A stretch of DNA of 64,000 nt from Hyphomicrobiales bacterium (GTDB lineage Bacteria; Pseudomonadota; Alphaproteobacteria; Rhizobiales; Beijerinckiaceae). The stretch covers positions 1 through 64,000 of the forward strand of contig JAPLOU010000044.1 of NCBI GenBank assembly GCA_026400535.1, read 5' to 3'. Of the stretch, positions 1-19,153 are shown piece by piece. The stretch's first letter is position 1; each line of letters starts with the position of its first letter. The notes under the pieces were generated by a model. That model saw nothing but the letters and a program-made list of their open reading frames with translations. It was not told the DNA's origin and made no database searches. A program made the translations under genes and the position numbers.

Positions 1-618
1 GAGCGCCCTGCGTGCGCCGGCCAGCCGCCCCGCCTGCCGGTCATTGAACGGAAGATGCCCCACAACCATGCCGATGCGCCTGTGGCCGAGATCGATGAGA
101 TGCTGCGCCGCAAACTCCCCCGCCCGCTCATTGTCGACGGTAACGGCGGCAAAGTCAGCTTCGCCGCACCAGGTCAGAACCACCGGAACGCCGGCCGCCC
201 GCAGCAGATTTTTCGCCTCCTTTGCCCGCCCGGCGCCCACCAGCATCAACCCGTCGACACCGCGCGCCAGCAGCGTACGGATCGCCTCGGTCTCTGCCTC
301 TGGATTCATCTCATGCGAGGCGACGAGAAGCTGGTAGCCTTCGCGCGCCAGCGTCGACTGCATGGCCTGAAGCACGCGGGCAAAAATCGTGCTGTCCAGC
401 GTCGGAACGATCGCGCCGATGGTCATCGTCCGGCCTGAGGCGAGAGCGCGCGCCATCCCGTCTGGCCGGTAGCCCAGCTTACGCGCGCTTTCGTGCACGC
501 GGTGCAAGGTCGCGGCCGCGAGCAGGTCCGGTTGTGCCATGGCGCGCGAAACGGTCGCGGGCGAAACGCCCGCATCCCTGGCGACATCCACCAATCTGGC
601 TTTGCGGCGCGTTGACAT
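1..618 (-). CDS. LacI-family transcriptional regulator (C-terminus beyond left edge)
   Basis: Reading leftward from the ATG whose first base is 618, 206 codons stay open to the window edge. The N-terminus carries a LacI-type helix-turn-helix (VARDAGVSPATVSRAM, residues about 11-26) and hinge (LGYRPDGMARALASGR), followed by a periplasmic-binding-protein-like sensor domain (IGAIVPTLDSTIFA...). The protein would repress or activate genes in response to a small metabolite. It is divergent to the ABC/dehydrogenase operon starting near 774, and a perfect palindrome at 729-744 between them is the likely operator. The last third of the sensor domain is outside the window. Family is clear; the ligand is unknown. 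Confidence 0.93.
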   Translation of the reverse strand, partial: MSTRRKARLVDVARDAGVSPATVSRAMAQPDLLAAATLHRVHESARKLGYRPDGMARALASGRTMTIGAIVPTLDSTIFARVLQAMQSTLAREGYQLLVASHEMNPEAETEAIRTLLARGVDGLMLVGAGRAKEAKNLLRAAGVPVVLTWCGEADFAAVTVDNERAGEFAAQHLIDLGHRRIGMVVGHLPFNDRQAGRLAGARRAL

Positions 619-697
619 CACGCCACGATGAAAAAAATGTCATCGCCTGTCCAGAGAAAGCGCGCTGATCACGGTCAGGACTGACCAATCCCTGCCG

Positions 698-728: not shown

Positions 729-744
729 ATGAAAGCGCTTTCAT
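729..744. promoter_or_regulatory. Perfect 16-bp palindrome, LacI-family operator
   Basis: ATGAAAGCGCTTTCAT is its own reverse complement. The centre-CG form with GAAAGC/GCTTTC arms is typical of LacI/CcpA-type operators. It lies between the divergent LacI gene (start 618) and the transport operon, just downstream of a TTGACA box. It contains the first ATG (729) of the first permease frame, which argues against that ATG being the start. Confidence 0.8.
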
Positions 745-773
745 CAGAAGAGCATCGGGAGGCTCGACAAGCT

Positions 774-1550
774 ATGCTCGGACGGCGGAGCTGGATTGGC
801 GTGGGGACGATCGCGACGCTTCTGGCGGCGTGGTTCGTGCTGACGACCATGACCGGCATCGTATCCCCGGCCCGCTTTCCCGCGCCAGGCGAGTTCTGGA
901 CCTCGCTGCGGCAAATTTCGGTGCGTGGCTACGCCGGCGGTCAACTGCTCACCCATGCGCTGCACAGCCTGAAGCTTGTCGCCATGGGCTTTATGGTCGC
1001 CATCCTCACCGGGGTGCCTCTCGGCCTGTGGATGGGCTGGAGCCGCAAGGCAGAAGCGGCGATCAATCCGGTCTTCCTGATCATCCGCCCGATCCCGCCG
1101 CTGGCCTGGATCCCGCTGGCCATCCTTTGGCTCGGGCTGGGCGATGCGGCCAAGATCATGGTCATCTGGTTCTCGGCCTTCGTACCATCCGTGATCAACT
1201 CCTTTGCCGGCGTGCGCAACATCGACAAGCCGATCATCGAAGCGGCCCGCATGCTCGGCACCCCGCGCTGGCGGCTGGTGAGCGAGGTGATCGCGCCGGC
1301 GGCCTCCCCGATGATCTTCACGGGGCTGCGGCTCTCGCTGCAGGCGGCGTGGACAACCCTCGTCGCGGCTGAACTGGTCGGAGCGCTCGTCGGCATCGGG
1401 TTCATCCTCAACATGGCGCAGCAGGACCTCTACCCCGGCATGATCCTGGTCGGCATGGTCGTGGTCGGGCTTCTCGGCTGGGCGACGACATGGCTGCTGG
1501 GCCTCGCCGAGAAGCGCGCCCTGTCCTGGAACATGGCGGCGCGGGACTAG
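774..1550 (+). CDS. ABC transporter permease, nitrate/sulfonate/taurine type (SsuC/TauC-like)
   Basis: Inner-membrane permease of about 258 residues with several hydrophobic spans. It carries the EAA-type cytoplasmic loop (EAARMLGTPRWRLVSEV) that docks to the ATPase. Family members import sulfonates, taurine, nitrate or pyrimidine precursors. I choose ATG 774, preceded by GGGAGG at 757-762. The in-frame ATG at 729 lies inside the operator palindrome and has no ribosome binding site. It is followed after 3 bases by a second permease, so the pair probably forms a heterodimer. The substrate is not readable from the sequence; downstream dehydrogenases suggest an organosulfonate or polyol-like acid. 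Confidence 0.88.
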   Translation: MLGRRSWIGVGTIATLLAAWFVLTTMTGIVSPARFPAPGEFWTSLRQISVRGYAGGQLLTHALHSLKLVAMGFMVAILTGVPLGLWMGWSRKAEAAINPVFLIIRPIPPLAWIPLAILWLGLGDAAKIMVIWFSAFVPSVINSFAGVRNIDKPIIEAARMLGTPRWRLVSEVIAPAASPMIFTGLRLSLQAAWTTLVAAELVGALVGIGFILNMAQQDLYPGMILVGMVVVGLLGWATTWLLGLAEKRALSWNMAARD

Positions 1551-1553
1551 GCC

Positions 1554-2342
1554 ATGGGCGATGCCTCACTCAGCCTTCGCGAACGATTGGCCTGGGGCGC
1601 CTTTGGCCTTGTGCTGTTTCTGGGTATCTGGACCTTCCTGTCGACCTCCGGCGTCGTGCCAGGCCCGTTCCTGCCCTCCCCGCTCGAGGTCCTGAACCGG
1701 ATCATCCGGCTGATGACCAACCCCTTCGCCGGTGCGACGCTGCCGCAACATCTCGCCTCCAGCGTCCAGCGCTATGGCTTCGGCGTGCTGCTCGCCGCCG
1801 CCATCGGCGTGCCACTCGGCCTGCTGATGGGCTGGTTCCGGCTGCTCGACGACATCATCACCCCGATCTTCGACGGCCTGCGCTTCATCGCCCCCATTGC
1901 CTGGGTGCCGTTCGCCGCGCTCTGGTTTGGCACCGGCATTGGCGGGCCGGTCATGATCATCTTCGCCGGCGCCTTTCCGCCATGCCTGATCAACGCCTAT
2001 CGCGGCGCCCGCTTTGTCGAGCCGCGCCTGATCGAGGCGGCCAGGATGCTCGGCACCGGCAACATGCGCATGATCCTCGAAGTCCTGCTGCCAGCCGCCA
2101 CCCCGTCGATCGTCGCGGGCCTTCGGGTCTCCGCCGGGCTTGGATGGCAGTCCCTGGTCGGTGCCGAACTGATTGTCGCAGCCGCCGGCGTCGGCTTCAT
2201 GATGGTGCAGGCGCAGGCGAATGTCGCGACCCCCACGGTGATGGCCGGAATGCTGGCCATCGGTGTCATCGGCATGCTGATCGATGTGCTGTTGAGACAA
2301 GGCGAAGGCTGGCTGCGCCGCCGTCGCGGCCTTGAGGCGTGA
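1554..2342 (+). CDS. ABC transporter permease, second subunit (SsuC/TauC-like)
   Basis: A 262-residue paralogue of the preceding permease with the same architecture and EAA loop (EAARMLGTGNMRMILEVL). It starts 3 bases after the first permease stop. Two different permease genes in a row are less common in the SsuC/TauC family, where one gene usually forms a homodimer, so a heterodimeric channel is inferred. The stop overlaps a GTG in frame with the ATPase, showing tight operon organisation. Confidence 0.88.
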   Translation: MGDASLSLRERLAWGAFGLVLFLGIWTFLSTSGVVPGPFLPSPLEVLNRIIRLMTNPFAGATLPQHLASSVQRYGFGVLLAAAIGVPLGLLMGWFRLLDDIITPIFDGLRFIAPIAWVPFAALWFGTGIGGPVMIIFAGAFPPCLINAYRGARFVEPRLIEAARMLGTGNMRMILEVLLPAATPSIVAGLRVSAGLGWQSLVGAELIVAAAGVGFMMVQAQANVATPTVMAGMLAIGVIGMLIDVLLRQGEGWLRRRRGLEA

Positions 2343-2353
2343 GGGGGACAATC

Positions 2354-3151
2354 ATGGGGTCGATCCGCTTCGACAAGGTCGACAAGGTGTTTGGCCCAAA
2401 GGCGGGGGGCGTCAAGGCGCTCGACAACATCAATCTGGAGATCGGCGAGAAGGAATTCGTCGCCATCGTCGGCCCGTCCGGCTGTGGCAAGACCACCTGC
2501 CTCAGGATGGTAGCGGGGTTCGAAGCCCCCAGCGCCGGCGTGGTCAGCGTCAGCGGCAAGCCAGTGACGGCCCCCGGTCCCGACCGGGCCGTGGTGTTTC
2601 AGCAGTTCGCGCTGTTTCCGTGGAAGTCCGTGCGCGAGAACATCGAGCTCGGATTGCGTAACAAGAACCTGCCGGCCGGCGAACGGGCCGATCTGGTGGC
2701 CAGCGCCCTCAAGCTGATGAACCTTGAGACCCACGCCGAGGCGTTCCCGCATCAGCTGTCCGGCGGCATGCAGCAGCGCGTTGCCATAGCCCGTGCCTAT
2801 GTGCTTGATCCGGACGTGCTCTTGATGGACGAGCCGTTCGGCGCGCTCGACGCCCAGACCCGCGTTGTCATGCAGGAGGAACTGGTGCGCCTCGCCCGCG
2901 TCAACCCGCGCACGGTGTTGTTCATCACCCATGCGGTGGAGGAGGCGGTTTATCTCGCCGACCGCGTCGCCATCATGACGAGGCGTCCGGGCCGCATCAA
3001 GCAGGTGCTCGATGTCCGCAAGATCCGGCAGGCCGAGAACTGGGACAAGCACCCGCGCATCGAGGACGTGATGGACCTTGAATCCTTCGTGCACCTGCGC
3101 ACCCAGATCTGGAAGTCGCTGCGTGAGGAGAAGAGCGCCAATGTCATCTGA
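2354..3151 (+). CDS. ABC transporter ATP-binding protein (SsuB/TauB-like)
   Basis: About 265 residues with every ABC ATPase motif: Walker A GPSGCGKTT, Q-loop in VFQQFALFPW, signature LSGGMQQR, Walker B VLLMDEPFGALD and the switch His in FITHAVEEA. It powers the two upstream permeases. ATG 2354 is preferred over the GTG at 2339 because GAGGGGG (2341-2347) lies six bases ahead of it. The 3' end overlaps the start of the aminotransferase gene by 11 bases. Confidence 0.9.
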   Translation: MGSIRFDKVDKVFGPKAGGVKALDNINLEIGEKEFVAIVGPSGCGKTTCLRMVAGFEAPSAGVVSVSGKPVTAPGPDRAVVFQQFALFPWKSVRENIELGLRNKNLPAGERADLVASALKLMNLETHAEAFPHQLSGGMQQRVAIARAYVLDPDVLLMDEPFGALDAQTRVVMQEELVRLARVNPRTVLFITHAVEEAVYLADRVAIMTRRPGRIKQVLDVRKIRQAENWDKHPRIEDVMDLESFVHLRTQIWKSLREEKSANVI

Positions 3152-4412
3152 CCTCGCCGCGTTGCCTCGTCTGACCCGTGACCTGACCGAGCCGGAACCG
3201 ATCCCAGAAGCTGGCATCGCGCGGGCCAATGAACTGATGCGATCCGGCCGACTGTTCCGCTATGGCGAAATGGGCACTGATCAGCTTGATGTGTCGTTGC
3301 TGGAGCAGGAATTTGCCGGCTTTGTGGGCCGCAGGTTCTGCGTGGCCGTCAATTCCGGCGGCGGCGCGCTGTTTCTGGCGCTCAAGGTGCTGGGCGTAGA
3401 GCCGGGCGAGCCGGTGCTGGTCAACGGCTTCACGCTGGCGCCGGTTCCGGGCGCCATTGTCCATGCCGGCGCAAGGCCGGTCATCGTCGAGATCGGGCCG
3501 GACTACGTGATCGACCTCGATGACCTGCGCGCGAAAGCAAGATCCTCGGGCGCGCGCGTGCTCATGCTCTCGCACATGCGCGGGCACGTCACCGACATGG
3601 ACGCAATGGCCGATGTCTGCCGTGAACTGGGTCTCCGGCTGGTCGAAGATTGCGCCCATTCACTGTGCGCGTCCTGGCGCGGCAAGACGATTGGCACCTT
3701 TGGCGAGGCGGCGGCCTTCAGCGCCCAGACCTACAAGCACCTCAATGCCGGTGAGGGCGGGTTTCTGGTTCTGGATGATCCGGATATGGCGGCCCGGGCC
3801 ATCGTCCATTCGGGCAGTTACATGCTGCATGCCCAGCATCTGAGCAGTCCCGGCGCAGAGGTGCTGGCACGGCATGCCGAAACGACTCCCAATTTCAGCA
3901 TGCGGATGACGGCGCTGGCCGCGGCCTTGCTGCGTCCGCAATTGCAGGAGTTGCCACGCCGTGCCGCGCGCTGGAACGCAATCCACGATCGCATTGCGGC
4001 TGGCCTGGCACGCTCGCAAGCCGTGCGGCTACCCGTCCGGCACGCGGACGAGCGCTACTCCGCGACCTCGGTGCAATTCTCCCTGCTCGGCTTCGAGGCT
4101 GCCGAAATCGGGGCTTTCCTCGCCCGAACCAGGGCGCGCGGCGTGCCCATCAAGTGGTTTGGCGCCGAGAGCCAGGTCGGCTTCACCAGCGCCCCCCGAC
4201 ATTGGCGCTATGCCGGCGAGCAGGGCGGACTGACCCAGACCCATCAGGTACTGGCAGGCCTGTTCGATATCCGAACGCCCGTCTCGATGACGGACGATGA
4301 ATGCGACCTCGCGGCCGAGATTGTGCGCGAGGCAATCCAATCCGTGATCTCCGACAGAACGGGGACAGGGCAGGCCCGGGAGGCAACGGCACGCCACAAG
4401 CTGGCAGGCTGA
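3141..4412 (+). CDS. DegT/DnrJ/EryC1/StrS-family PLP aminotransferase
   Basis: About 423 residues of fold-type-I PLP enzyme. Landmarks are VNSGGGALFLAL for phosphate binding, VEDCAHSLCASWRGK with the PLP-pyridine Asp, and the Schiff-base Lys in SAQTYKHLNAGEGG. ATG 3141 follows GAGGAG (3125-3130) and overlaps the ATPase end. The family usually transfers amino groups to or from keto-sugars. It lies between the ABC ATPase and the binding-protein gene, so it probably acts on the imported compound or its ketone product. This position is unusual for the family. No sugar-nucleotide genes are nearby, so a biosynthetic role is less likely. The substrate is unknown. Confidence 0.85.
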   Translation: MSSDLAALPRLTRDLTEPEPIPEAGIARANELMRSGRLFRYGEMGTDQLDVSLLEQEFAGFVGRRFCVAVNSGGGALFLALKVLGVEPGEPVLVNGFTLAPVPGAIVHAGARPVIVEIGPDYVIDLDDLRAKARSSGARVLMLSHMRGHVTDMDAMADVCRELGLRLVEDCAHSLCASWRGKTIGTFGEAAAFSAQTYKHLNAGEGGFLVLDDPDMAARAIVHSGSYMLHAQHLSSPGAEVLARHAETTPNFSMRMTALAAALLRPQLQELPRRAARWNAIHDRIAAGLARSQAVRLPVRHADERYSATSVQFSLLGFEAAEIGAFLARTRARGVPIKWFGAESQVGFTSAPRHWRYAGEQGGLTQTHQVLAGLFDIRTPVSMTDDECDLAAEIVREAIQSVISDRTGTGQAREATARHKLAG

Positions 4413-4447
4413 TGCCGCTCACTCAGACAAACAGGGAGAGACAGACC

Positions 4448-5497
4448 ATGAAACGTTACCTCGCAGGACTAGCACTGGCCGCGGCACTCGGCGTCGCAGC
4501 ACCCGCGCCGACACAGGCCCAGACCGCCATTGGCGTCAGCTATCAGCCCTCGCTCTACTGGGCACTTCCATTCCACTACGCCAACGTCAAGGGCTGGTGG
4601 AAGGATGTCGGCCTGACACCAAACTTCACCACCTTCCCGGCAGGCGCGCCCCAGATCGCCGCCTCGGCAGCCAAATCCTGGGATGTCGGCGGCACTGGCT
4701 CGGTGCCAGCCGTTCTCGGTGCGGTCCGCTTCAACATCCTGACCATCGGCATCACCAATGACGAGTCCAAGACCAACGCCATGATGGTGCGCGGCGACAG
4801 GTTCGACACCATCAAGGCCAACCCTCAGACCCTCAAGGGTCAGCGCTTGCTGCTGACAACCAATTCGACAGTGGACTACGCCGCCCGCAAGTGCCTGGTG
4901 AAGATGGGCCTTGGCGCCAATGACATGCAGTTTGTCAATCTCGGACAGGCGCAGATCATCACCGCCCTGACCTCGAACAATGGCGATATTGCCGGTGTCT
5001 GGGCTCCGAACACCTACACGCTCGAAGAGCGTGCCAATGCCAGGTACCTGTGCTCCGGCGCGGATGCAGACGCGATTGTTCCAGGCGCCTTGATCGTGCG
5101 CGGCGACTTCGCCAAGGAGCGACCTGATGATGTCGCCAAATTCCTGGCCGTGTTCCTGCGCGGCTGGTCATGGGCCAAGGCCAACCCGGTCGAGGCCCGC
5201 ACGCTGGCGCTGGACTTCTACAAGCAGGGCGGGCTGGAAGTGTCTGCCCGGGCCATGGACCAGGAGTTCGCGCTGCGGCCGACCTTCGGCCTCGACGAGC
5301 AGCTCAAGCTGATGGCGCGCGGCGCAGCCGGGTCGACGGTTGACGGCTGGTTCTCCGAGATCGGCAAGTTCATCACCGATGTTGGCACCATCCCCGCCAA
5401 CCCCGAAGCGAGGAGCTACCTCACCGATGACTTCCTGAAGCGCGTCGCCGCTGATCCCAAGCTGCGCACTTTTGCTACGGAATTCGACAAGAAGTGA
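4448..5497 (+). CDS. ABC transporter periplasmic substrate-binding protein (NMT1/SsuA-like)
   Basis: 349 residues. The signal peptide (MKRYLAGLALAAALGVAAPA, cleavage probably after TQAQ) is followed by an NMT1/SsuA-type domain, with YWALPFHYANVKGWWKDVGL near the start and the typical GGTGSVPAVLGA stretch. It delivers the ligand to the permease pair upstream. ATG 4448 has GGGAGAG just ahead. The gene is separated from the transporter genes by the aminotransferase and followed by a strong hairpin (5505-5537), which may raise its mRNA level relative to the rest. Confidence 0.9.
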   Translation: MKRYLAGLALAAALGVAAPAPTQAQTAIGVSYQPSLYWALPFHYANVKGWWKDVGLTPNFTTFPAGAPQIAASAAKSWDVGGTGSVPAVLGAVRFNILTIGITNDESKTNAMMVRGDRFDTIKANPQTLKGQRLLLTTNSTVDYAARKCLVKMGLGANDMQFVNLGQAQIITALTSNNGDIAGVWAPNTYTLEERANARYLCSGADADAIVPGALIVRGDFAKERPDDVAKFLAVFLRGWSWAKANPVEARTLALDFYKQGGLEVSARAMDQEFALRPTFGLDEQLKLMARGAAGSTVDGWFSEIGKFITDVGTIPANPEARSYLTDDFLKRVAADPKLRTFATEFDKK

Positions 5498-6879
<1,382 letters not shown>

Positions 6880-6880
<1 letters not shown>

Positions 6881-7653
6881 TGGCGTTCCGGCTCGCCTGC
6901 CTGTTCGACCTGACCGGCAGGACCGCGCTGGTCACCGGCGGCAACAGCGGCATCGGCCTTGCGATGGCGCGCGCGCTCGGGCTCGCCGGCGCGGCGGTGC
7001 TGCTGGCGGCGCGGCGGCAGGACGAGACGGCTAGCGCACTCGAAGCTCTTGCGCGTGAGGACATCGCGGCCGCCGGCATGTCCGTCGATCTGGCCAGGCC
7101 CGATTGCGCGACCATCGTCAGGGAACAACTCGCGGCGGCAGACAGCTCGCCCGACATTCTGGTCAATGCAGCCGGCGTGAACCTGCGCCAGCCCTTCGAG
7201 GAGGTGACGGCCGAGGCCTTCGACCTGCACATGGCGCTGCATCTGCGTGCGCCGTTCCTGCTGGCCCAGGCGCTGGCGCCGGCCATGGCCAGCCGCAAGT
7301 TCGGCCGGATCATCAACATCGCGTCATTGCAGAGCTACCGTGCCTTCCCCAACTCCGCCCCCTATGGCGCCGCCAAGGGCGGTGTGGTGCAACTCACCCG
7401 CGCGATTGCCGAGGAATGGTCGGCGCATGGCGTCACCTGCAATGCGGTCGCGCCGGGCTTCTTCCCCACGGCGCTGACGGCTCCGGTTTTCGGCGACCCG
7501 GTGCGGTCTGCAAGAAACGCGGCGCAGACCGCGATCGGACGCAACGGGGACCTTGATGATCTGACCGGGGTGACCGTGTTTCTGTCCTCATCGGCATCGT
7601 CCTATATCACAGGTCAGACGCTGGCCGTCGATGGCGGCTTCACCGCCAAATGA
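6880..7653 (+). CDS. SDR-family oxidoreductase
   Basis: 257 residues of a classical short-chain dehydrogenase: nucleotide motif TGGNSGIG, NAAG, the catalytic Ser in NIASLQSY and YGAAK with the Tyr/Lys pair, ending in the typical GQTLAVDGG. It resembles gluconate-5-dehydrogenase-type enzymes. Its ATG overlaps the last base of the HpsN-like gene's stop codon, so translation is coupled. In a DHPS setting it would be one of the two 2-dehydrogenases that interconvert (S)- and (R)-DHPS through sulfohydroxyacetone (HpsO/HpsP role). That is inference from context. Confidence 0.85.
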
Positions 7654-7666
7654 GAGGAAGCGAACC

Positions 7667-8671
7667 ATGAGGGCGCTTGTCTACACCGGCCTGAACACCC
7701 TGGTCTATCGCGACGAGCCGGACCCCGTCCCGGGCGCGGGCGAAGTGCTGGTCAGGGTCGAGGCCGTCGGCATCTGCGGCTCAGACATGCACGCCTATCA
7801 CGGGCATGATTCGCGCCGCCCTGCCCCGCTTATCCTCGGTCATGAGGCTGCCGGACGGATTGTTTCAGGAGCACGCGCCGGCGAGCGGGTCACCATCAAC
7901 CCGCTGGTTGTCGACCCCAACTGTCCATATGCGATCGAAGGGCGCTGGCACCTGTCGCCGACCCGCCAGATCCTGTCCACGCCCCTGCGTCCCGGCGCGT
8001 TCGCCGAACTGGTCCTCGTCCCGGAGCGCAATCTTGTGACCATTCCGGATTGGCTTGCCATTGAGCACGCCGCGCTGGCAGAGCCGATTGCTGTCGCCTG
8101 GCACGCGCTGAGGCTTGGCAAGAAGCTCATGCACCAGCCACTGGCTGCCTGCCGTGTCGTGGTTCTGGGCGGCGGCGCCATTGGCCTCGCGGTGGCCATC
8201 GTGGCGCGGCTGTTCGGCGCCTGCGACATCCGGATTGGCGAAACCAACGCCATGCGCCGCGCGACGATCGCACGCGCGGAAGGCTTTGACGCCTATCAGC
8301 CCGGCACCAATGCAGAGCCGCCTGACAGCTCCGTTGATCTGGTGATCGACGCCGTCGGCGCGGCGCAGACCCGCGTGGGAGCATCCGCCATGGTTAGGCC
8401 GGGTGGCGCCATCGTTCACGTCGGACTTCTGCCCGGCCACGAGGGACTGGATATCCGGAAGATAACCCTTCAGGAGATCACGCTCAGCGGCTCATATTGC
8501 TACACGCCGCAGGATTTCGAGCAGACCGTTGCGGCCTTGGCGGGCCGGCGTCTCGGCCGCCTCGCCTGGTTCGAGGAGCGCCCCTTGTCCGACGGCCCCC
8601 GCGCCTTTGCGGACATCGATGCTGGCACGACTGCGTCCTCCAAGATCGTCTTGCGCCCGCCGGGGTCCTGA
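7667..8671 (+). CDS. MDR-family alcohol dehydrogenase (Zn-type)
   Basis: 334 residues. The GroES-like N-domain has the catalytic-zinc motif (GICGSDMHAYHG then LGHEAAG), and the Rossmann fold has LGGGAIGLAVAIVARL. The lobe that normally holds the four structural-zinc cysteines is shortened (VDPNCPYAIEGRWHLS, one Cys), so the structural zinc is probably absent. ATG 7667 follows GAGGAAG. It closes the operon and is the likely partner of the SDR in oxidising or epimerising the same hydroxyl. Confidence 0.85.
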   Translation: MRALVYTGLNTLVYRDEPDPVPGAGEVLVRVEAVGICGSDMHAYHGHDSRRPAPLILGHEAAGRIVSGARAGERVTINPLVVDPNCPYAIEGRWHLSPTRQILSTPLRPGAFAELVLVPERNLVTIPDWLAIEHAALAEPIAVAWHALRLGKKLMHQPLAACRVVVLGGGAIGLAVAIVARLFGACDIRIGETNAMRRATIARAEGFDAYQPGTNAEPPDSSVDLVIDAVGAAQTRVGASAMVRPGGAIVHVGLLPGHEGLDIRKITLQEITLSGSYCYTPQDFEQTVAALAGRRLGRLAWFEERPLSDGPRAFADIDAGTTASSKIVLRPPGS

Positions 8672-9087: not shown

Positions 9088-9297
9088 ATCATCTCGACCT
9101 TTTTCCCCTGCATCGATTGCGCCCGCGCCATCGTGCAGACCGGCATCGCCCGTCTCACGACCTATGATCCGCCGCTGGATGATCCGGTGTGGGGCTCGGC
9201 CTTCCCGCGCTCGCAGATCATTCTGCAGGAAGGCGGCGTGGCCGTCACGCTGTTGCCGAGGCCGCCTTTGCCGCAAGATTGCCGCGCGACGGCATGA
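9061..9297 (+). pseudogene. C-terminal fragment of a dCMP/cytidine-deaminase-family gene
   Basis: The frame ending at the TGA at 9295-9297 translates to the second half of a deoxycytidylate-deaminase-like protein. The zinc motif PCxxC (FFPCIDCARAIVQTGI) is intact and is followed by the conserved PVWGSAF and ILQEGGVAVTLL stretches. The first zinc ligand motif (HAE) and everything upstream are missing, and a TGA at 9052-9054 closes the frame. The end overlaps the 3' end of the oppositely oriented DapA-family gene by about 50 bases. A remnant is the simplest reading. Confidence 0.65.
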
Positions 9298-10240
9298 GCC
9301 CGCTGCCCGCGAAAGCCGTGACGATCACCTGACGCTCGGCCTCGCTCAATGGCAGCATCGGCCGACGCACCGCTCCCCCGACCTGGCCCAGCAGCTCCTG
9401 CCAGCACTTCGCGTGCGCCTGCGGCTTCTCGGGCGGACGCGAGGTCTTGAAGGCGTGGCGGACCGGTTCGAGCGACTGCCAGATCGCCCGAGCGCCCCTA
9501 ACGTCACCGGCGAAAGCCCTCTCGGTATACGCATGCATCCGCAGGTCGCCGGCGGTCTGGAACAGGTAGGGCGGGTTGGAGCACAGATAGCACTGCCAGT
9601 TCAGCTCGAGGATGTTGTCGAGCCATTCCTCCTCAGAGGCGGTGGAGACGATGATCCTGTCGCCAGCCATCTGCGTGAGCTTCACATACATCTCGCGCGG
9701 CACACTGTACTTGATGGCGACGATGTTGGGCAGTTCGGCAATCCGCGCGCACAACTCCGGGCTCATCAGATAACCCGAATCCGGATGGCTCCACATGGCG
9801 ATGCCGATGTTCACCCGCTCGGAAATGTACTTGTAGTAGGCGTAAAGGGTCTCATCCTGCGCCTTCAGGAAATGCAGTACCGGCGCATGCACGACAACGA
9901 AGTCGGCGCCGATTGCCTCGGCATAGCGCGCCAGTTCGACGACGGTGTCCATGTTCTGGTCCGAGCAGGACAGGATCACGCCGGCACTTGTGCCGATCTC
10001 GTCGACAGCGATGTCGAAGGCCCGCTTGCGCTCGTCCAGCGACATGGCGAAGAACTCGCCCTGCTTGCCGTTGATGAAGAGGCCGCGGATCCTCAGATCG
10101 TCGATCCAGTGACGGATATTGTTGCGGAAACCGCGCTCATCAAGCGACAGGTCAAGGCCGAAGGGCTGAAGCGCCGCAGCCCAGATACCGCGGAGGTTCT
10201 CTCGCGCATAGGCCTTCGCATCGGTGCGGGCATACTTCAT
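9245..10240 (-). CDS. DapA-superfamily class I aldolase/lyase, divergent active site
   Basis: 331 residues of the DHDPS/NAL TIM barrel. The Schiff-base Lys is in NIVAIKYS, and the GxxGE loop reads NGKQGEFF. Aligned by eye with dihydrodipicolinate synthase, the GTTGE Thr and the catalytic Tyr of YNVPSRTG are replaced (GKQGE, and MWSHPDSG). The PYY motif is PVL. It is therefore not a true DapA and probably cleaves or dehydrates another 2-keto acid. Its ATG at 10240 overlaps the stop of the molybdenum-hydroxylase gene, so it belongs to the kynurenine-type train. Its product could act on a ring-cleavage or keto-acid intermediate; this is a guess. Confidence 0.8.
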   Translation of the reverse strand: MKYARTDAKAYARENLRGIWAAALQPFGLDLSLDERGFRNNIRHWIDDLRIRGLFINGKQGEFFAMSLDERKRAFDIAVDEIGTSAGVILSCSDQNMDTVVELARYAEAIGADFVVVHAPVLHFLKAQDETLYAYYKYISERVNIGIAMWSHPDSGYLMSPELCARIAELPNIVAIKYSVPREMYVKLTQMAGDRIIVSTASEEEWLDNILELNWQCYLCSNPPYLFQTAGDLRMHAYTERAFAGDVRGARAIWQSLEPVRHAFKTSRPPEKPQAHAKCWQELLGQVGGAVRRPMLPLSEAERQVIVTAFAGSGLMPSRGNLAAKAASATA

Positions 10241-12471
10241 CGCGCTTCTCCCTTGCGGGCCTGGGCTTGCAGGGCCGTCCAGATGGTCTGGGCGGTACAT
10301 GGCATGTCGATCCGCGAGACGCCAGCCGGCGCAAGCGCGTCATGGATGGCATTGACGATCGCGGCGGGAATACCGATGCAACCGGCCTCGCCAGCGCCCT
10401 TTGCGCCGAGCAGGTTCATGCGCGATGGCACCGATCGGCTGACGATCCGCGACGGCGGCATGTCGGCAGCGCGCGGGACGCGATAGTCCATCAGGCTTCC
10501 CGTCAGAAGCTGGCCGTCCGGATCATGGACAAGGCGCTCCATCAGGGCCTCGCCCAGACCTTGCGCCAGGCCGCCAAGAAGCTGACCCTTCAGCAAAACA
10601 GGGTTGATCACGACGCCCGCATCATCGATCCAGACGATCTGCCCCACCGTGGGAACGCCGGTGTCCGCATCGATGCTGACGGTCGCCACCACAGCGCCGG
10701 AAGCCCAGGCCTCGCCTTTCGCCTCGTAGCGGACCTCAGTCATCAGTCCCCTGTTGCGGACCCCGGACGCGTGCGCCGCCTTAGCGAGCGCCTCCCAGGA
10801 CAGGCTCGCCGCTCCTGTCCGGCTGACCCATCCCGCAGCGTTCCGAACAAGGGATCGTGGCTCGGCCTGCAAGGTGGTGGCCGCCAGCGCGCGGGCCTTG
10901 CGCAGGAAGATCCGCGCGGCCTTCACGATGGCGCTGCCGCCGATCGGGGTCGAGCGGCTGGCAAGCGCGCCGATTCCCTCCGGCGTCAGCGCGGTATCGC
11001 CATGGACCACCCGCAGGCGGGCCTCCGCGCAGCCCAGCGCGCCCGCCGCAATCTGCGCGGCTGCGGTCTCGCGGCCCTGCCCCTGCGATGTCGAGCCCGT
11101 TGCGACAAGGATCGCACCGGATGGATCGAGGCTGATCGCGGCGCTTTCCCAGCCCTGGCCGCACGGCTCGGCATAGAGCGCCACACCGAGCCCGGCGAGC
11201 CTTCCCAGCGCGCGCAGCCGCGCCACCTCGCGCCGCAAGCGGCTCAAGCCCGCCCTCCGCCGCAAGGCCCTGATCAGACCCGGAAAGTCGGACGCGTCGA
11301 TAATCTCGCCTGCGGCTGTTGCCGATGGCAGGCTGGTGCGCGCGTGGACATTCCTGAGCCTGAGCACGACCGGATCCATGTTGATCGTCCGTGCCGCCGC
11401 GTCGACCAGCCGCTCCATCAAGAGCGTCGCTTCCGGCCGACCGGCGCCGCGGTAGATGCCAACCGGCGCGTGTCCGGTCAGCGCGGCGGAAACAGTGATG
11501 TCGACATGCGGTATCCTGTACGGTCCCGGCAGGATGCGGCCGGCATTGCGCGCAGGCACGGCCCCGGAAAACGGCATCCAGCCGCCCAGCGGAAAGGTGC
11601 CCTCCACGTCCAGCGCCATGAACATCCCGTCGGCCATGACGCCAAGCCGCGCCGACATGCGCCCGCCCCGACCGGCGGTCGCGCTGAGGAAGTCCTCCGA
11701 TCGGGTCGCGGTCCACTTCACCGGGCGTCCGGTCCTGATGGCGGCCAATGCCACCACCGCGTCCTCGGGATAGAGTGACGCTTTGCCTCCGAAGGAGCCG
11801 CCGACATGTGGCGCGATCACGCGCACCTGGTCGGGCGACAGTCTGAGGATGCGGGCCAGATCCAGGCGCGCCCTATGCGGCGTCTGCGTCGGAAGCCAGA
11901 CGTTGAGCACCTGCCGGGCCTCGTCCCAATGCGCCAGCGCCGCACGTGGCTCAAGCGCCATGGGCGCGAGCAGCGCGTGCTGCACAGAAACCGCAATCAC
12001 ATGATCGGCTCGCGCCATCGCCGCCGGCACGTCACCCTGCGACCAGCTCTGCCGCAGGGCCTCGCGCGGCCCGGGCAGGTCCGGCGTGATCTCGAGGCCG
12101 ATGCTCTCCGCAAGATCCATGGCCGTCCAGCGGTCCTGTGCCACCACGGCGGCAACGGGCTGACCGAGGCACAGAACGCGGTCCTGCGCCAGCAAGGGAG
12201 CCGGATGCGCGCACAGGCCAGGAACCAGCGGATTGACGGACGTCCGCCCAAGAGCGGCGACCTCGGCGCCCGTCAGGGTGAGGATCGCATCCGCCGAGCG
12301 GCGCGCCGGCTCCGCATCGAGCCGCGTAATGACCCCGCCGGCATGGGCGCTGCGGGTAAAGCAGAGGAACAGGCAACCCGGTGGCGCAAGATCGTCCACA
12401 AAGGTAGCCTGTCCACGCACGAGGGCATCATCCTCGCGTCGCACCGATGCTGTACCGAATACGCGGCTCAC
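10237..12471 (-). CDS. Xanthine-dehydrogenase-family molybdopterin-binding subunit (CoxL/XdhB type)
   Basis: 744 residues. It has the N-terminal aldehyde-oxidase/xanthine-dehydrogenase hammerhead domain, then the molybdopterin domain with GGSFGGK, YRGAGRPEA and the catalytic Glu in GAKGAGEAG. Such subunits hydroxylate N-heteroaromatics, aldehydes or CO at a Mo centre. The GTG start overlaps the stop of the upstream 3-hydroxyanthranilate dioxygenase gene. The partner 2Fe-2S and FAD subunits that these enzymes need are not adjacent and not seen in the window, so it must borrow them or be a split complex. The substrate is unknown; an aromatic in the tryptophan/kynurenine route is a reasonable guess. 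Confidence 0.87.
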   Translation of the reverse strand: MSRVFGTASVRREDDALVRGQATFVDDLAPPGCLFLCFTRSAHAGGVITRLDAEPARRSADAILTLTGAEVAALGRTSVNPLVPGLCAHPAPLLAQDRVLCLGQPVAAVVAQDRWTAMDLAESIGLEITPDLPGPREALRQSWSQGDVPAAMARADHVIAVSVQHALLAPMALEPRAALAHWDEARQVLNVWLPTQTPHRARLDLARILRLSPDQVRVIAPHVGGSFGGKASLYPEDAVVALAAIRTGRPVKWTATRSEDFLSATAGRGGRMSARLGVMADGMFMALDVEGTFPLGGWMPFSGAVPARNAGRILPGPYRIPHVDITVSAALTGHAPVGIYRGAGRPEATLLMERLVDAAARTINMDPVVLRLRNVHARTSLPSATAAGEIIDASDFPGLIRALRRRAGLSRLRREVARLRALGRLAGLGVALYAEPCGQGWESAAISLDPSGAILVATGSTSQGQGRETAAAQIAAGALGCAEARLRVVHGDTALTPEGIGALASRSTPIGGSAIVKAARIFLRKARALAATTLQAEPRSLVRNAAGWVSRTGAASLSWEALAKAAHASGVRNRGLMTEVRYEAKGEAWASGAVVATVSIDADTGVPTVGQIVWIDDAGVVINPVLLKGQLLGGLAQGLGEALMERLVHDPDGQLLTGSLMDYRVPRAADMPPSRIVSRSVPSRMNLLGAKGAGEAGCIGIPAAIVNAIHDALAPAGVSRIDMPCTAQTIWTALQAQARKGEAR

Positions 12472-13013
12472 TTCGCCTGCGGCCGGCCCGGATTGACGTG
12501 TCCGCAGCGCTTGCAGGTCTGGTTCGCCGGGTCGGCGTAGTAGGCTTCGAACACCGGCGGCATGTCACGTTCCAGATTCTCGATATGCACCGCCTTCTCG
12601 AAAATCACGGCGTTGCAGCTCTGGCAGTACCAGCGATGCGTGTCGAGCATTCCATTCTTGCGGATCCGCTCGACGATCAGGCCGACCGTGTTCGCAGGCC
12701 GCATCGGCGCGTGCGGGACCCCGGCCGGAAGGACATAGATAGAGCCCTCATTGATCTTCACATCATGGGGCTTGCCATCCTTCTGGATGCGCAGGGTCAT
12801 CTCACCGGTCAACTGGAAGAAGAATTCTTCGGTCTGGTTGACGTGGTAGTCGGTCCGCGCATTGGGTCCGCCCACAACCGTGACCATGAAATCATCCATC
12901 CGGAAAATGGTCTTGGCCGCCGTCGGCGGCTTGAGTTGCTCCCGGTTCTCGTTGATCCACTTGATCAGGTTGAACGAGGCGGGTTCAGCGGCGATCTGCG
13001 GCAAAGTGGACAT
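12468..13013 (-). CDS. nbaC: 3-hydroxyanthranilate 3,4-dioxygenase
   Basis: 181 residues, the usual length for bacterial HAAO. The cupin iron ligands are visible (DYHVNQTEEFFFQL with His and Glu, then VPHAPMRP with His). The C-terminal rubredoxin-like site has both CxxC pairs (WYCQSC and CKRC). It opens 3-hydroxyanthranilate to 2-amino-3-carboxymuconate semialdehyde with O2. ATG 13013 has GGAGC just upstream. It lies between kynureninase and the Mo-hydroxylase gene. The next enzymes of the 2-nitrobenzoate/kynurenine meta route (decarboxylase NbaD, dehydrogenase NbaE) are not in the window. Confidence 0.95.
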   Translation of the reverse strand: MSTLPQIAAEPASFNLIKWINENREQLKPPTAAKTIFRMDDFMVTVVGGPNARTDYHVNQTEEFFFQLTGEMTLRIQKDGKPHDVKINEGSIYVLPAGVPHAPMRPANTVGLIVERIRKNGMLDTHRWYCQSCNAVIFEKAVHIENLERDMPPVFEAYYADPANQTCKRCGHVNPGRPQAK

Positions 13014-13068
13014 GGTCTGTGCTCCTGCGGATAATGTGTCTGTTGAAGGATGGGTCGCGGGCACCCTC

Positions 13069-14319
13069 TCAGGTGGTCGGACCGTCGCGCTCACCGGCAA
13101 AGCGTCGCCAGTCGCCTGTCTCCAGGATGTCGCGCAGGATGTCGGCGGCGCGCCAGACCTCGTCGAAGCTGGTGTAAAGCGGCGTCAATCCGAAGCGCAG
13201 GATGTCCGGCGCGCGGAAATCACCGACGACTCCACGGCTGATCAGCGCCTTCATGATGCGGAAACCCTCGGGATGGCTCCACGAGACCTGGCTGCCACGG
13301 ACCCGCTCATCGCGCGGCGAAGCAAGAGCAAGGTCATACCGGGCCGCATAGGCGTCGACGCAGGCGATGAAGTAGCGGGTCAACTGCACGCTCTTGGCGC
13401 GGACGGCCTGCATCGATGTCCTGTCCCAGATATCCAGCGATGCCTCCAGCGCGGCATAGGACAGGATCGGCGGCGTGCCGCACTGGAAGGCGCGGATGCC
13501 CGCATCCGGCGCGTAATCAAGGCTGAAGGCAAACGGATCGCTGTGGCCAAGCCAGCCGGTCAAGGGCTGGCGGACATGGGGTTGATGCCGCTTCGGACAG
13601 TAGACGAAAGCGGGCGCGCCGGGCCCGCCATTGAGATACTTGTAGCCGCAACCGACAGCGAAATCGGCCTTCGCTGCGGTCAGGTCGACCTCGAGCGCGC
13701 CGGCGCTGTGCGCCAGATCCCAGATCATCAGGGCTCCGGCCGCCTGCACCTCGGCCGTCACGGCAGCCATGTCGTGGAAGGCCCCCGACCGGAAATCGAC
13801 ATGGGTGAGCAGGACGACGCCAGCCCCGTCGAGCAGCGTTGCCAGCGGCCTGTCCGGCGTCGCAATCCTGATCTCGATGTCGCCCAGGAGATCGCGGATG
13901 CCCTGGAGCATGTAGATGTCGGTCGGGAAATTCGACGCCTCCGACACGAAGACGCGGCGAGCCGGGCGCAGCCGCAGCGCCGCGCAGACCACCTTGAAGA
14001 TGTTGAGCGAGGTGCTGTCGAGGGCGATCACCTCGCCGGCCTTAGCACCGATCAGCCGGCCGATCCGGTCACCGACCACCTGCGGCTTCACGAACCATCC
14101 GGCCGTGTTCCAGCTGGCGATCAGGTTGTCGCCCCATTCCTGCCGGAGCGTGGCCAGGAGCCGACCCTCCGCACCCTTCGGCAGGGCGCCCAGGGAATTG
14201 CCGTCGAGGTAGATCTTGCCCTGCGGCAGATGAAAGCTGTCCCTCAGGCCGGCGAGGCCGTCCGCTGCATCGAGCGTCTCGGCTTCGCGTCGCAGGCCAG
14301 CCAGTTCAGTGCTCGGCAT
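13069..14319 (-). CDS. kynU: Kynureninase
   Basis: 416 residues of a PLP fold-type-I enzyme with the kynureninase hallmarks: YLDGNSLGALP near the N-terminus, DLAHSAGALEVDL with the PLP Asp, and the Schiff-base Lys in GCGYKYLNGGPGAPAF. It cleaves kynurenine or 3-hydroxykynurenine to anthranilate or 3-hydroxyanthranilate plus alanine. Its start overlaps the formamidase stop by one base. With a downstream HAAO, 3-hydroxykynurenine would be the useful substrate, but no kynurenine 3-monooxygenase gene is present nearby. Confidence 0.95.
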   Translation of the reverse strand: MPSTELAGLRREAETLDAADGLAGLRDSFHLPQGKIYLDGNSLGALPKGAEGRLLATLRQEWGDNLIASWNTAGWFVKPQVVGDRIGRLIGAKAGEVIALDSTSLNIFKVVCAALRLRPARRVFVSEASNFPTDIYMLQGIRDLLGDIEIRIATPDRPLATLLDGAGVVLLTHVDFRSGAFHDMAAVTAEVQAAGALMIWDLAHSAGALEVDLTAAKADFAVGCGYKYLNGGPGAPAFVYCPKRHQPHVRQPLTGWLGHSDPFAFSLDYAPDAGIRAFQCGTPPILSYAALEASLDIWDRTSMQAVRAKSVQLTRYFIACVDAYAARYDLALASPRDERVRGSQVSWSHPEGFRIMKALISRGVVGDFRAPDILRFGLTPLYTSFDEVWRAADILRDILETGDWRRFAGERDGPTT

Positions 14320-15179
14320 CAGGTTGTCTTTCCATGTGCAAGGTCCAGCGTGGCGCGCGTCATCCGCGATCCAGGATCGGCGAGGTCCATCAGCGAATTG
14401 AAGTGATTGAGCCCCGGCTGAATGTAGACCTCCAGCGCGGGCATCAGCAAGCGCCAGGCCGCCGCCAGCGCCTGAGACTGGCGGTGAAAACCCGGTGTCT
14501 CATGCTCGGCCCAGGTCATGGCCACAGGGCAGCGCAGCAGTGGGGTCTGGTGCGCAGGGCTGTTGCGCAGGGCCTCGGCCTCATCCATGCGCATGACATC
14601 GTTGACATAACTCAGGCGGACCGGCTTGAGATCGAACACGCCCCCGATCAGGTGCAGCCCTGCCAGCGCGGGCAGGCCGGCGACGCCGCGCACTGCGGCC
14701 ATCGCGGCAAGATGGGCACCAGCCGAGTGCCCTGCTAGCACGATCCGGCCGGTATCGAAACCCAGTTCGGGCGCCCGTGCGACCAGAAAGGCCAGGGCCG
14801 TCACGACGTCATGAACAATGCCGTCCAGCCGCGTCGTCTCCCCCAGGCGATAGCTGATGGCCACATAGTTCACGCCGCCCGCGCGCATGGCCGGCGCCGG
14901 AAAGCTGGCGAAGTCCTTGGACAGCGCCTGCCAGAACCCGCCATGGATGAACACGACCAGCGGCGCGCCACGCCCAGCGCAGGGGAAATAGTCAAGGACA
15001 TGCCGCTCATCAGGTCCGTAGGCCAAGCCAAGCTGCGCTGATGATCCGACGGCGGCGCGCGCCAGCCGACTCTGTTCTGCATAAAGCCAGATGTAATGCT
15101 CGATCCGTTCCACGGTCTTGCTGGGGGAGAAGTCAAGATCGAGGGCGGCCTTCAAGGCCGCGTCAGGCTGCCCGTTCAT
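14319..15179 (-). CDS. Alpha/beta hydrolase, probable kynurenine formamidase (arylformamidase)
   Basis: 286 residues. The esterase/lipase-type HGGFW oxyanion motif (residues about 75-79) is characteristic of the animal/yeast-like kynurenine formamidases. The nucleophile elbow is GHSAGAH, and a late GLNHFNSL supplies the His. This is not the metal-dependent KynB type. It would hydrolyse N-formylkynurenine to kynurenine, fitting its place between the dioxygenase and kynureninase genes, both of which overlap it by a few bases. Substrate assignment rests mainly on context. Confidence 0.85.
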   Translation of the reverse strand: MNGQPDAALKAALDLDFSPSKTVERIEHYIWLYAEQSRLARAAVGSSAQLGLAYGPDERHVLDYFPCAGRGAPLVVFIHGGFWQALSKDFASFPAPAMRAGGVNYVAISYRLGETTRLDGIVHDVVTALAFLVARAPELGFDTGRIVLAGHSAGAHLAAMAAVRGVAGLPALAGLHLIGGVFDLKPVRLSYVNDVMRMDEAEALRNSPAHQTPLLRCPVAMTWAEHETPGFHRQSQALAAAWRLLMPALEVYIQPGLNHFNSLMDLADPGSRMTRATLDLAHGKTT

Positions 15180-16342
15180 GCCACGCCGGTCCTGCCCACC
15201 GCGCTCTTCGCCGTGCCGACCCGGGCCTCCCGCAACAGATCGACAAAGGACGTCCCCCCGGTCCCGAGGCTGCCCATGCGGCCCGAGGGCTTGAGGATGT
15301 CATCGACGCTGAGCCCGATGTGGCGCCGCCGGAAGATGTCGCGCTGTTCGACGGCCACACCATACGCAGCCCTCGGCTCGGCATGGCCCTCCACGGCCAC
15401 GCGCTGGCGCACCGTTGCCGCCGCGAAGTCCTGCACGAAGGCGCGGTAAAGTGTCGGCATGGAGTTCCGCATCTCCCTGAGGAACGCACCGGCTTGGCCC
15501 TCATGGCTGATGCCCAAAGCTGGGTCTGATGTCTGGATCAGGGAACGCTGCCCGGCACTGCCGCCAGCAATCACGACAGGGTTGGGCCAAACCCCCTCAT
15601 AGATCGCTCCGGGCTCCGGCCAGCCGGCGAGATGGGGCCCTATCCAGTAAAAGACGATGTAAGGATCGCACCATTCCTGCGTCCGTTCGAGCGCGATGAT
15701 CAGCGTTGGCAGGCCTTCCGCCAGCTGCCACAGCGCGCGCGCCAGGCCAGGAAGGTCTCCGGCATCCGCATGGCGAGCGGCATCCGCCGCGGCCGCGATC
15801 AGTGGCGCGCCGAGGATCTCGATGCCGAGCGTCGCGGTGAAGGACCAGGTCTCGTCCGAGCCACCGGGAAAGCCCAACAGCACGGTCGCATTGTCCGCCG
15901 AAACCGGACTGCCCAGGTCCACCCGCCGACAGGTCTGAAGCGTCATGGACGCATGCAAGACCAGCGGCTTGCGGCCCAGCATGGCGGCAAGCTGGCAGAC
16001 AGGAACCGCGGGATTGGCCGGAATCTGGACATCGGGCTCGGCATCGCCCCAGACCCAGGCATTTTTCAGCACGCTCAGCGCCAGAAAGACGCTCTCCTGT
16101 TCCGCCGGCATGGCAAGTTGTGCGACATCAAGGGGCGGCAACACCCGGATGGCATGCCTGACCCGCCGCATCCCGATCAAGGCGGCCAGATCCCGCGCAA
16201 CGGCACCCCAGGCCGAGAACCAGTCCGGGTCCGTCACCAGCGGGGCCGCCTCGGGCACGAAGCCGGTCGTGGCGCTGATCCCGTAATCCGCCAGAGCTCC
16301 GAGGGTCTGCCGGGGCGCAACGGGCGTGGCTGCACATGTCAT
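15176..16342 (-). CDS. Indoleamine 2,3-dioxygenase-family heme protein
   Basis: 388 residues. The IDO-family core is present: GGSAGQRSLIQ, HEGQAGAFLREMRNSMP and YRAF, with the likely proximal heme His in RRRHIGLSVDDIL. The protein shows none of the bacterial tryptophan 2,3-dioxygenase (KynA) hallmarks. IDO-type enzymes open the indole ring of tryptophan or related indoles to the N-formylkynurenine type. It overlaps the formamidase gene by 4 bases. Bacterial IDOs often have poor affinity for tryptophan, so another indole substrate is possible. Confidence 0.88.
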   Translation of the reverse strand: MTCAATPVAPRQTLGALADYGISATTGFVPEAAPLVTDPDWFSAWGAVARDLAALIGMRRVRHAIRVLPPLDVAQLAMPAEQESVFLALSVLKNAWVWGDAEPDVQIPANPAVPVCQLAAMLGRKPLVLHASMTLQTCRRVDLGSPVSADNATVLLGFPGGSDETWSFTATLGIEILGAPLIAAAADAARHADAGDLPGLARALWQLAEGLPTLIIALERTQEWCDPYIVFYWIGPHLAGWPEPGAIYEGVWPNPVVIAGGSAGQRSLIQTSDPALGISHEGQAGAFLREMRNSMPTLYRAFVQDFAAATVRQRVAVEGHAEPRAAYGVAVEQRDIFRRRHIGLSVDDILKPSGRMGSLGTGGTSFVDLLREARVGTAKSAVGRTGVA

Positions 16343-17719: not shown

Positions 17720-17720
17720 C

Positions 17721-19131: not shown

Positions 19132-19153
19132 TGACGCGGTCTTCCGGGCGCGG

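Follow-up and report, generated by a model that had tools for sequence, protein, structure and literature searches.

An hpsNOP operon with its own transporter and a DegT-family aminotransferase, a candidate gene for amino sulfonate use, in a Hyphomicrobiales bacterium

We analysed a stretch of 64,000 nucleotides (hereafter the window) from a Hyphomicrobiales bacterium, which forms the first 64 kb of contig C31 in a genome of 3.79 Mb (100 contigs, 93.66% complete). The subject is a predicted operon for the use of 2,3-dihydroxypropane-1-sulfonate (DHPS) that also holds a DegT-family aminotransferase. This single operon occupies positions 729-8671 of the plus strand beside a divergent gene for a LacI-type regulator, and its order is permease 1, permease 2, ATPase, aminotransferase, binding protein, HpsN, HpsO and HpsP. 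All genes named in a preliminary description of positions 2354-8671 were present with open reading frames, and both permease genes lie just upstream of that segment. The features are as follows.

1-621, minus strand: LacI-type regulator, cut by the contig start (Pfam LacI and Peripla_BP_1)
729-1550, plus strand: ATP-binding cassette (ABC) permease 1, TauC/SaoP-like (Pfam BPD_transp_1; 68% identical to the Paracoccus ferrooxidans permease beside hpsNOP-suyAB)
1554-2342, plus strand: ABC permease 2 (Pfam BPD_transp_1; 70% identical to P. ferrooxidans)
2339-3151, alternative start 2354, plus strand: ABC ATPase (Pfam ABC_tran; 73% identical to P. ferrooxidans)
3141-4412, plus strand: aminotransferase of the DegT/DnrJ/EryC1 family, dependent on pyridoxal phosphate (PLP) (Pfam PF01041, 185 bits)
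4448-5497, plus strand: NMT1/SsuA-like substrate-binding protein (Pfam NMT1; 61% identical to the P. ferrooxidans binding protein)
5567-6880, plus strand: HpsN, predicted R-DHPS 3-dehydrogenase of the HisD/HpsN type (71% identical to HpsN of Cupriavidus pinatubonensis HN-2)
6880-7653, plus strand: HpsO, predicted DHPS dehydrogenase of the short-chain dehydrogenase/reductase (SDR) type (58% identical to C. pinatubonensis HpsO)
7667-8671, plus strand: HpsP, predicted DHPS dehydrogenase of the medium-chain dehydrogenase/reductase (MDR) type (match to PDB 8wwd; four-cysteine cluster incomplete)

The ATG of the aminotransferase gene at 3141 overlaps the stop of the ATPase gene at 3151, and HpsN and HpsO share a TGATG overlap (6880); these overlaps suggest translational coupling. 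The aminotransferase gene sits inside the transporter operon, as the preliminary description had stated, and lies there between the ATPase and the binding protein. In addition, nine named contigs from Hyphomicrobiales, among them Bosea and Phreatobacter, hold the same eight genes in the same order (L080, L082-L088 and L134; L numbers denote loci on named contigs), with proteins 71-90% identical to those of the window and with the regulator, at the corresponding position, 63-84% identical. The nearest named relatives of the aminotransferase belong to these same groups. In a tenth contig (L081) the operon starts at the ATPase, since the contig begins there. Because eight genes keep their order in nine named contigs, the arrangement is not a matter of chance.

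The identity of the three dehydrogenases rests on homology and on published active-site residues. HpsN of the window aligns over its full length with C. pinatubonensis HpsN, and the two fall into one supported group of the phylogenetic tree (SH-aLRT 100). Its best match in the PDB was 8v35 (E = 3e-205), compared with 8e-67 for the best histidinol dehydrogenase. The available passages of PMC11382572 give the HpsN motif as G-R-Y-A/S-H, with His126 replacing the HisD motif, and the window protein reads GRYAH with H127. Furthermore, the zinc and catalytic residues Q248, H251, H411, E318, H319, D352 and K353 have their counterparts in Q249, H252, H412, E319, H320, D353 and K354 of the window. This enzyme is predicted to oxidise R-DHPS to R-sulfolactate. 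A histidinol dehydrogenase role for 5567-6880 was rejected, as the window protein carries the HpsN motif and a separate HisD is encoded on contig C18 (561 bits).

For HpsO, the active-site residues reported in passages of PMC11131964 (S145, Q147, Y158 and K162 of RpHpsO) are found with the same spacing in the window as IASLQ...YGAAK. Its best PDB match, 9pvq (3.5e-84), is named only as an SDR, and the second is the R-DHPS dehydrogenase HpsO 8wwf (2e-75). For HpsP, the DsHpsP residues H59, E60 and E139 given in the same source are present in the window, as H59-E60 and in ALAEP; its match to 8wwd, which we infer to be DsHpsP, is strong (1e-106, next match 3e-29). Because HpsN, HpsO and HpsP match solved structures and carry the published active-site residues, DHPS oxidation of the HpsN/O/P type is well supported as the predicted function of the operon. 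The resemblance pointed out in the preliminary description is therefore confirmed.

HpsP of the window keeps one of the four cysteines of a structural zinc cluster, a pattern that we derived from other HpsP-type sequences and that the available passages of the literature do not give in a published form. The window and 15 of 16 loci combining hpsNOP with the aminotransferase (L080-L088, L134, L121, L133, L139, L153 and L157) are missing three of these four cysteines. All four are kept in the remaining one, L094, and in 23 other HpsP-type sequences, from 19 genomes of a class sample described below (11 with the aminotransferase elsewhere) and from L071, L078, L079 and L103. Since the cysteine-poor MDRs may share one lineage, the loss appears to mark the operon type and would only hint at a changed function.

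We also compared 15 positions in 75 HpsN sequences for a residue rule separating a cysteinolate type from a DHPS type. Ser227 with His254-Glu255 was rejected as such a rule; these residues mark the group of the window and C. pinatubonensis, and the DHPS-type clusters of Paracoccus and Leisingera, which lack the aminotransferase, differ there. Arg124 and His127 are conserved in the alignment of all 75 sequences, and so are the zinc ligands except in one gapped row. The strict motif G-R/K-Y-x-H was unmatched in 13 of the 75 (Actinomycetota, Thermodesulfobacteriota and L137 among them); as Arg124 and His127 are kept, it would be the glycine or the tyrosine that differs in them.

The rest of the pathway lies elsewhere in the genome (G000; G numbers denote genomes of the class sample). 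Contig C9 carries consecutively a GntR-type regulator, suyA, suyB, a PF03601 exporter, a 2-hydroxyacid dehydrogenase and an Ldh_2 enzyme. SuyA and SuyB are 72% and 78% identical to those of P. ferrooxidans, so that the SuyAB route is identified by homology, and the set resembles the SlcC/ComC-SuyAB scheme in passages of PMC12421959. The best NCBIfam match of the Ldh_2 enzyme was L-sulfolactate dehydrogenase, at 181.5 against a cut-off of 500. The preliminary description had called the route self-contained, which does not hold with suyAB on another contig. No match to Ensifer CuyA or to the CuyA profile NF052482 was found in this genome at its 93.66% completeness, whereas the profile matched its controls and 20 of 22 genomes. 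CuyB was likewise not found in the genome, and the best Xsc score was 245 bits, under the cut-off of 676. An exit through CuyA or Xsc was therefore rejected for this organism.

Homology also gives the class of the transporter. Both permeases, the ATPase and the binding protein are 61-73% identical to the system on P. ferrooxidans pFER3, and the LacI-type regulator is 45% identical to the one beside P. ferrooxidans hpsN. The NCBIfam scores stayed below their cut-offs (SsuA_fam 100.6 against 163.5, TauC 165 against 342, taurine ATPase 219 against 357), so the transporter is related but not equivalent to SsuABC and TauABC. The best PDB match of the binding protein was the taurine-binding protein 6ssy (E = 2.6e-9). 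The SsuABC-like system with two permeases that the preliminary description singled out is present; it is not unusual, since P. ferrooxidans has an ABC-fed hpsNOP with no annotated aminotransferase in the stretch viewed, and ABC uptake is thus not peculiar to operons with the aminotransferase. The ligand of that P. ferrooxidans transporter is probably DHPS.

The aminotransferase is the real find of the operon, an ABC-fed hpsNOP being nothing special in itself. It belongs to the DegT/DnrJ/EryC1/StrS family (PF01041, cut-off 19.8), and lysine 197, counted in the fragment from 3147, aligns with a lysine of 1b9h/1b9i (3-amino-5-hydroxybenzoate synthase, AHBA synthase) and is taken as the PLP lysine. 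This lysine is invariant in all rows of alignments A1 and A3, the latter covering the window and 33 of 80 named loci. The structure model reached a pLDDT of 90.6, and its Foldseek neighbours among the 50 rows shown were sugar aminotransferases and relatives, for example TlmJ, AHBA synthase and Fic25. The usual reaction of DegT enzymes is the amination of sugar-type ketones or aldehydes. Fic25 was crystallised with an N2-acetyl-DADH adduct, according to the structure title; we take N2-acetyl-DADH to be an acyclic amino alcohol and hence a chemical precedent, although the literature search gave nothing relevant on Fic25. The protein fell into no named NCBIfam equivalog (best PseC, 119 bits against 423.5). 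Amino-sugar biosynthesis was rejected as its role, as no NCBIfam cut-off for a sugar aminotransferase was reached and the neighbouring genes are sulfonate genes, with a reservation for the Rhodobacterales group described below.

Relatives of the aminotransferase were confirmed at 581 loci, and the best 80 of these are the named loci, to which the following counts refer. We found hpsN within 9 kb of the aminotransferase gene in 60 of the 80 loci, a share biased upward because the locus patterns came from an alignment of mostly HpsN-linked aminotransferases. In 45 of the 80, hpsN was within 400 bp and on the same strand. Of the 60 linked loci, 16 had hpsO and hpsP, 12 had cuyA, one (L103) had hpsP alone and 31 had none of these, as counted within 9 kb in the fetched stretches, some of whose contigs are short. 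Among plasmid loci, 10 of 11 carried hpsN, cuyA and cuyB. In Ensifer, CuyA scores above the NCBIfam cut-off for D-cysteate sulfo-lyase and CuyB above that for cysteate racemase; this CuyA shares 81% identity with its R. pomeroyi counterpart.

The class sample of 385 genomes, in which up to four first-look candidates were scored per genome, is free of the bias from hpsN-linked patterns. The aminotransferase was found in 22 genomes, HpsN in 34 and both in 19. HpsN was thus present in 19 of 22 genomes with the aminotransferase and in 15 of 363 without it (Fisher's test, P = 3.6e-20, a value that overstates independence because the genomes are related by descent). Furthermore, 14 of the 19 genomes with both have SuyB or a CuyA over the cut-off, and 12 have an HpsP-type MDR.

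At least three phyla contain pairs of aminotransferase and hpsN, and the genes that join such pairs are hpsO/hpsP, those for cysteate sulfo-lyase and racemase, or one for a PLP decarboxylase. As relatives of the aminotransferase keep company with HpsN and with these two cysteate enzymes, its action on an amino sulfonate is supported. This company points to an amino-C3-sulfonate, with cysteinolate as the best guess. Of the earlier proposal that the enzyme acts on cysteinolate, the amino sulfonate part is thus backed, and cysteinolate itself is the more tentative part.

The position of the gene varies among ABC-hpsNOP operons. It lies in the gap between ATPase and binding protein in the Bosea type, between hpsN and hpsO in L121, L133, L139, L153 and L157, and after hpsP in L094. 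L133 and L139 also carry suyAB, so the aminotransferase lies there inside a cluster running from import to desulfonation. On the aminotransferase tree, linkage to HpsO/P requires four gains or losses, at least three of them by well-supported branches; the trees omit three aminotransferase and two HpsN sequences interrupted by a stop where they matched, along with one aminotransferase of insufficient length. This varied placement speaks for a function within the operons.

Other families recur within 7 kb of the aminotransferase gene; their names rest on profiles of one or two members per family (one, L139, for Ldh_2). Two Pyridoxal_deC decarboxylase families occur in seven and in four HpsN-linked loci. 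Such decarboxylases stand beside aminotransferase-hpsN pairs in L105, L117, L118 and L132, and in L114, L120 and other Acidimicrobiales loci, where they possibly turn cysteate into taurine; two profiled members reached NCBIfam names only under the cut-off. A FAD/GCV_T demethylase-like protein was found in eight HpsN-linked and three other loci (L042, L044, L045, L076, L089, L098 and L135 included), MTTB-type methyltransferases in four and four, and OpuAC-type (glycine-betaine-type) binding proteins in three and three, hinting at N-methylated amino sulfonates as possible substrates. An Ldh_2 family was seen in three HpsN-linked loci and one other. Ldh_2/Ldh-family genes lie at 13691-14770 of L139 (by suyAB, in the aminotransferase cluster), at 10283-11248 of L069 (by suyAB) and at 1-754 of L075 (about 7 kb from the aminotransferase). 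Finally, four pairs belong to Thermodesulfobacteriota (L124, L130, L136 and L151, from Mailhella, Halodesulfovibrio, Desulfosarcinaceae and Desulfobacteraceae), groups with known sulfonate respiration.

We read positions 729-8671 as an ABC-fed DHPS operon whose aminotransferase would add an amino analogue, most likely cysteinolate, to the usable substrates, and hold this at slightly less than even confidence. Its substrates, and every step given to the aminotransferase, are what we infer from the relations above. DHPS would be imported by the operon's own ABC system, with the LacI-type protein as the probable regulator. R-DHPS would be oxidised to R-sulfolactate by HpsN, and both R- and S-DHPS could enter via sulfolactaldehyde through HpsO and HpsP. 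R-sulfolactate would then be split by SuyAB into pyruvate and sulfite, and S-sulfolactate converted by SlcC/ComC-like dehydrogenases. The aminotransferase may pass the amino group of cysteinolate (2-amino-3-hydroxypropanesulfonate) to a 2-oxo acid, yielding sulfohydroxyacetone. This could reach DHPS or sulfolactaldehyde by isomerisation or by reduction, for which HpsO or the altered HpsP are candidates.

Several observations weigh against this reading. According to passages of PMC11131964, HpsO and HpsP oxidise C3 and not C2, so an onward route from sulfohydroxyacetone is hypothetical. Moreover, an HpsP-type match at 1e-55 is absent from 7 of the 19 class genomes that combine aminotransferase and HpsN (G028, G079, G148, G193, G195, G226 and G327; completeness is 100 for G028 and G148), and the 31 linked loci noted above have neither cuyA nor hpsO/hpsP nearby. 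The reduction of sulfohydroxyacetone to DHPS by the SDR/MDR pair, as first proposed, is doubtful on these grounds. As the binding protein is 61% identical to that of a DHPS-type cluster without the aminotransferase, it gives cysteinolate uptake no backing. The homologues do not occur mainly in a characterised non-sulfonate pathway; yet in the class sample, own genome excluded, hpsN was within 9 kb in only 5 of 24 aminotransferase loci and away from the other 19. A mostly Rhodobacterales group (L055, L057-L059, L122, L142-L145, L147, L149, L152, L154, L156, L158 and L159) lies away from hpsN, several members beside glmU/glmS-like, HAD-like or nuo-type genes, as judged from one profiled representative per neighbour family. 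We tentatively take these as scattered locations; G022, G154 and G252 of this group have HpsN elsewhere in the genome. Finally, where CuyA and CuyB stand beside the pair, the route has to run through cysteate. This would fit direct oxidation of cysteinolate by an HpsN-like enzyme, or an aminotransferase working between sulfopyruvate and cysteate. Since direct oxidation to cysteate would make the aminotransferase unneeded in CuyA-type clusters, its place in the pathway is not fixed. Overall, the interpretation in the preliminary description is partly supported.

We rank cysteinolate with sulfohydroxyacetone first, cysteate second and direct oxidation by HpsN third. The second reading, unlikely but the strongest of the rivals, is a plain DHPS operon whose aminotransferase would supply the "missing" Coa (cysteate:2-oxo acid aminotransferase), linking the sulfopyruvate/sulfolactate pool with cysteate. 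In the window, cysteate would give sulfopyruvate, then R-sulfolactate by a ComC-like dehydrogenase, and then enter SuyAB; in CuyA-type genomes the aminotransferase would run in reverse. The Coa gene is given as unknown in R. pomeroyi in passages of PMC11382572, and the plasmid loci with HpsN, CuyA and CuyB suit such an enzyme. So do the 2-hydroxyacid dehydrogenase and Ldh_2 adjoining suyAB in the genome itself, the four loci with an Ldh_2-type neighbour, and the gene annotated "Ldh family oxidoreductase" in plasmid locus L075. However, the other nine CuyA-type plasmid loci list no Ldh-type dehydrogenase in their incomplete gene tables, and the one-contig genome G028, with aminotransferase, HpsN and CuyA, has no match to our Ldh_2 at 1e-20, SlcC and SlcD not having been searched. 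The usual sugar-type substrates of DegT enzymes also speak against it. The Ldh gene of L075, the recurrence of Ldh_2 near the aminotransferases and the genomes without HpsP count somewhat against the cysteinolate reading and in favour of the one with Coa.

It is a clearly weaker prospect that HpsN itself oxidises cysteinolate to cysteate, as HisD acts on histidinol, leaving the aminotransferase a side task such as the other enantiomer. CuyA, CuyB and PLP decarboxylases beside the pair would suit an amino acid such as cysteate, the residues conserved across the 75 HpsN are compatible with it, and RpHpsN is weakly active on L-histidinol in passages of PMC11131964. However, CpHpsN had no detectable L-histidinol activity in passages of PMC11382572, the window HpsN groups with the enzyme of C. 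pinatubonensis that acts on DHPS, the host yielded neither CuyA nor CuyB, and 13 of the 75 fail the strict motif. A terminal amine, 3-amino-2-hydroxypropanesulfonate, probably occurs in nature. That the aminotransferase converts it into sulfolactaldehyde for HpsN is improbable. In its favour, HpsN prefers sulfolactaldehyde to R-DHPS as a substrate in passages of PMC11382572, and no C2 reductase would be needed, which fits hpsN-aminotransferase loci without hpsO/hpsP such as L047, but the CuyA/CuyB partners, needing cysteate, are left unexplained and no paper on this compound appeared by title in the literature search.

Returning to cysteinolate, a broader proposal, which we regard as doubtful, is that the adjacent pair of hpsN and DegT aminotransferase forms a so far unrecognised core of bacterial cysteinolate catabolism in Pseudomonadota, Actinomycetota and Thermodesulfobacteriota. 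Its interchangeable exits would be HpsO/HpsP/SuyAB via sulfolactate, CuyB/CuyA via cysteate and a PLP decarboxylase toward taurine. Some lineages would use N-methylated cysteinolates through demethylases and betaine-type importers, and the HpsP of the window, without its zinc cluster, would be a sulfohydroxyacetone reductase.

HpsN, HpsO, HpsP, SuyAB, CuyA and CuyB are already known. The searched literature, as far as its available passages go, did not show a DegT aminotransferase regularly accompanying them, and the passages of PMC8703288, PMC11131964 and PMC8027193 name no bacterial gene for cysteinolic acid breakdown. A published survey of HpsN neighbourhoods was restricted to the 272 HpsN genes that had hpsO as well as hpsP close by (passages of PMC11382572); because both genes were required, pairs of aminotransferase and hpsN without them fall outside it. 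Cysteinolic acid is widespread in marine microalgae, and its cellular content can exceed that of dimethylsulfoniopropionate (passages of PMC8703288). A conserved aminotransferase tied to HpsN offers a concrete candidate gene with which a missing step of the sulfonate cycle can be tested.

Downstream of the operon, on the minus strand at 9245-21321, lies a probable tryptophan/kynurenine catabolic cluster. Its members are as follows.

9245-21321, minus strand: DapA-like protein, molybdopterin-binding dehydrogenase large subunit, 3-hydroxyanthranilate dioxygenase, kynureninase, alpha/beta hydrolase
9245-21321, minus strand, further members: indoleamine 2,3-dioxygenase, FAD oxidoreductase, class V aminotransferase-like protein, CoA-transferase III, HMGL-like protein

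The DapA-like protein and the Mo-enzyme are odd companions for 3-hydroxyanthranilate cleavage.

Several known systems resemble the operon in part. In the proposed algal synthesis of DHPS, cysteinolic acid is converted to 2-oxo-3-hydroxypropanesulfonate and then to DHPS (passages of PMC11131964). It shares its intermediates with the bacterial route first proposed, but it is phytoplankton biosynthesis, and those passages name no genes. The hps/suyAB cluster of C. pinatubonensis (HN-2 plasmid p2, L071) also has a LacI-type regulator in front, and its HpsN, HpsO and HpsP are 71%, 58% and 46% identical to those of the window. It differs in a transporter of the major facilitator superfamily instead of an ABC system, in UxaA-type suyA/suyB within the cluster and in having no aminotransferase in the stretch viewed. 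P. ferrooxidans pFER3 (L078) shares the ABC proteins, LacI and hpsNOP with the window. However, the stretch viewed has no aminotransferase, hpsNOP points away from the transporter genes and HpsP has the four cysteines. Leisingera caerulea (L079) shares the hpsNOP order (HpsN 55%), but has a tripartite ATP-independent periplasmic transporter, ComDE and an alpha-hydroxy acid oxidase downstream, and no aminotransferase in the stretch viewed. Finally, the plasmid clusters cuyA-aminotransferase-cuyB-tauABC-hisD (hpsN-like) of Ensifer, Shinella, two Mesorhizobium, Ancylobacter and Paracoccus alcaliphilus have an aminotransferase 47-51% and an HpsN-like protein 56-58% identical to those of the window; in them, cysteate sulfo-lyase and racemase replace HpsO, HpsP and SuyAB, and the transporter is of the taurine type with a single permease.

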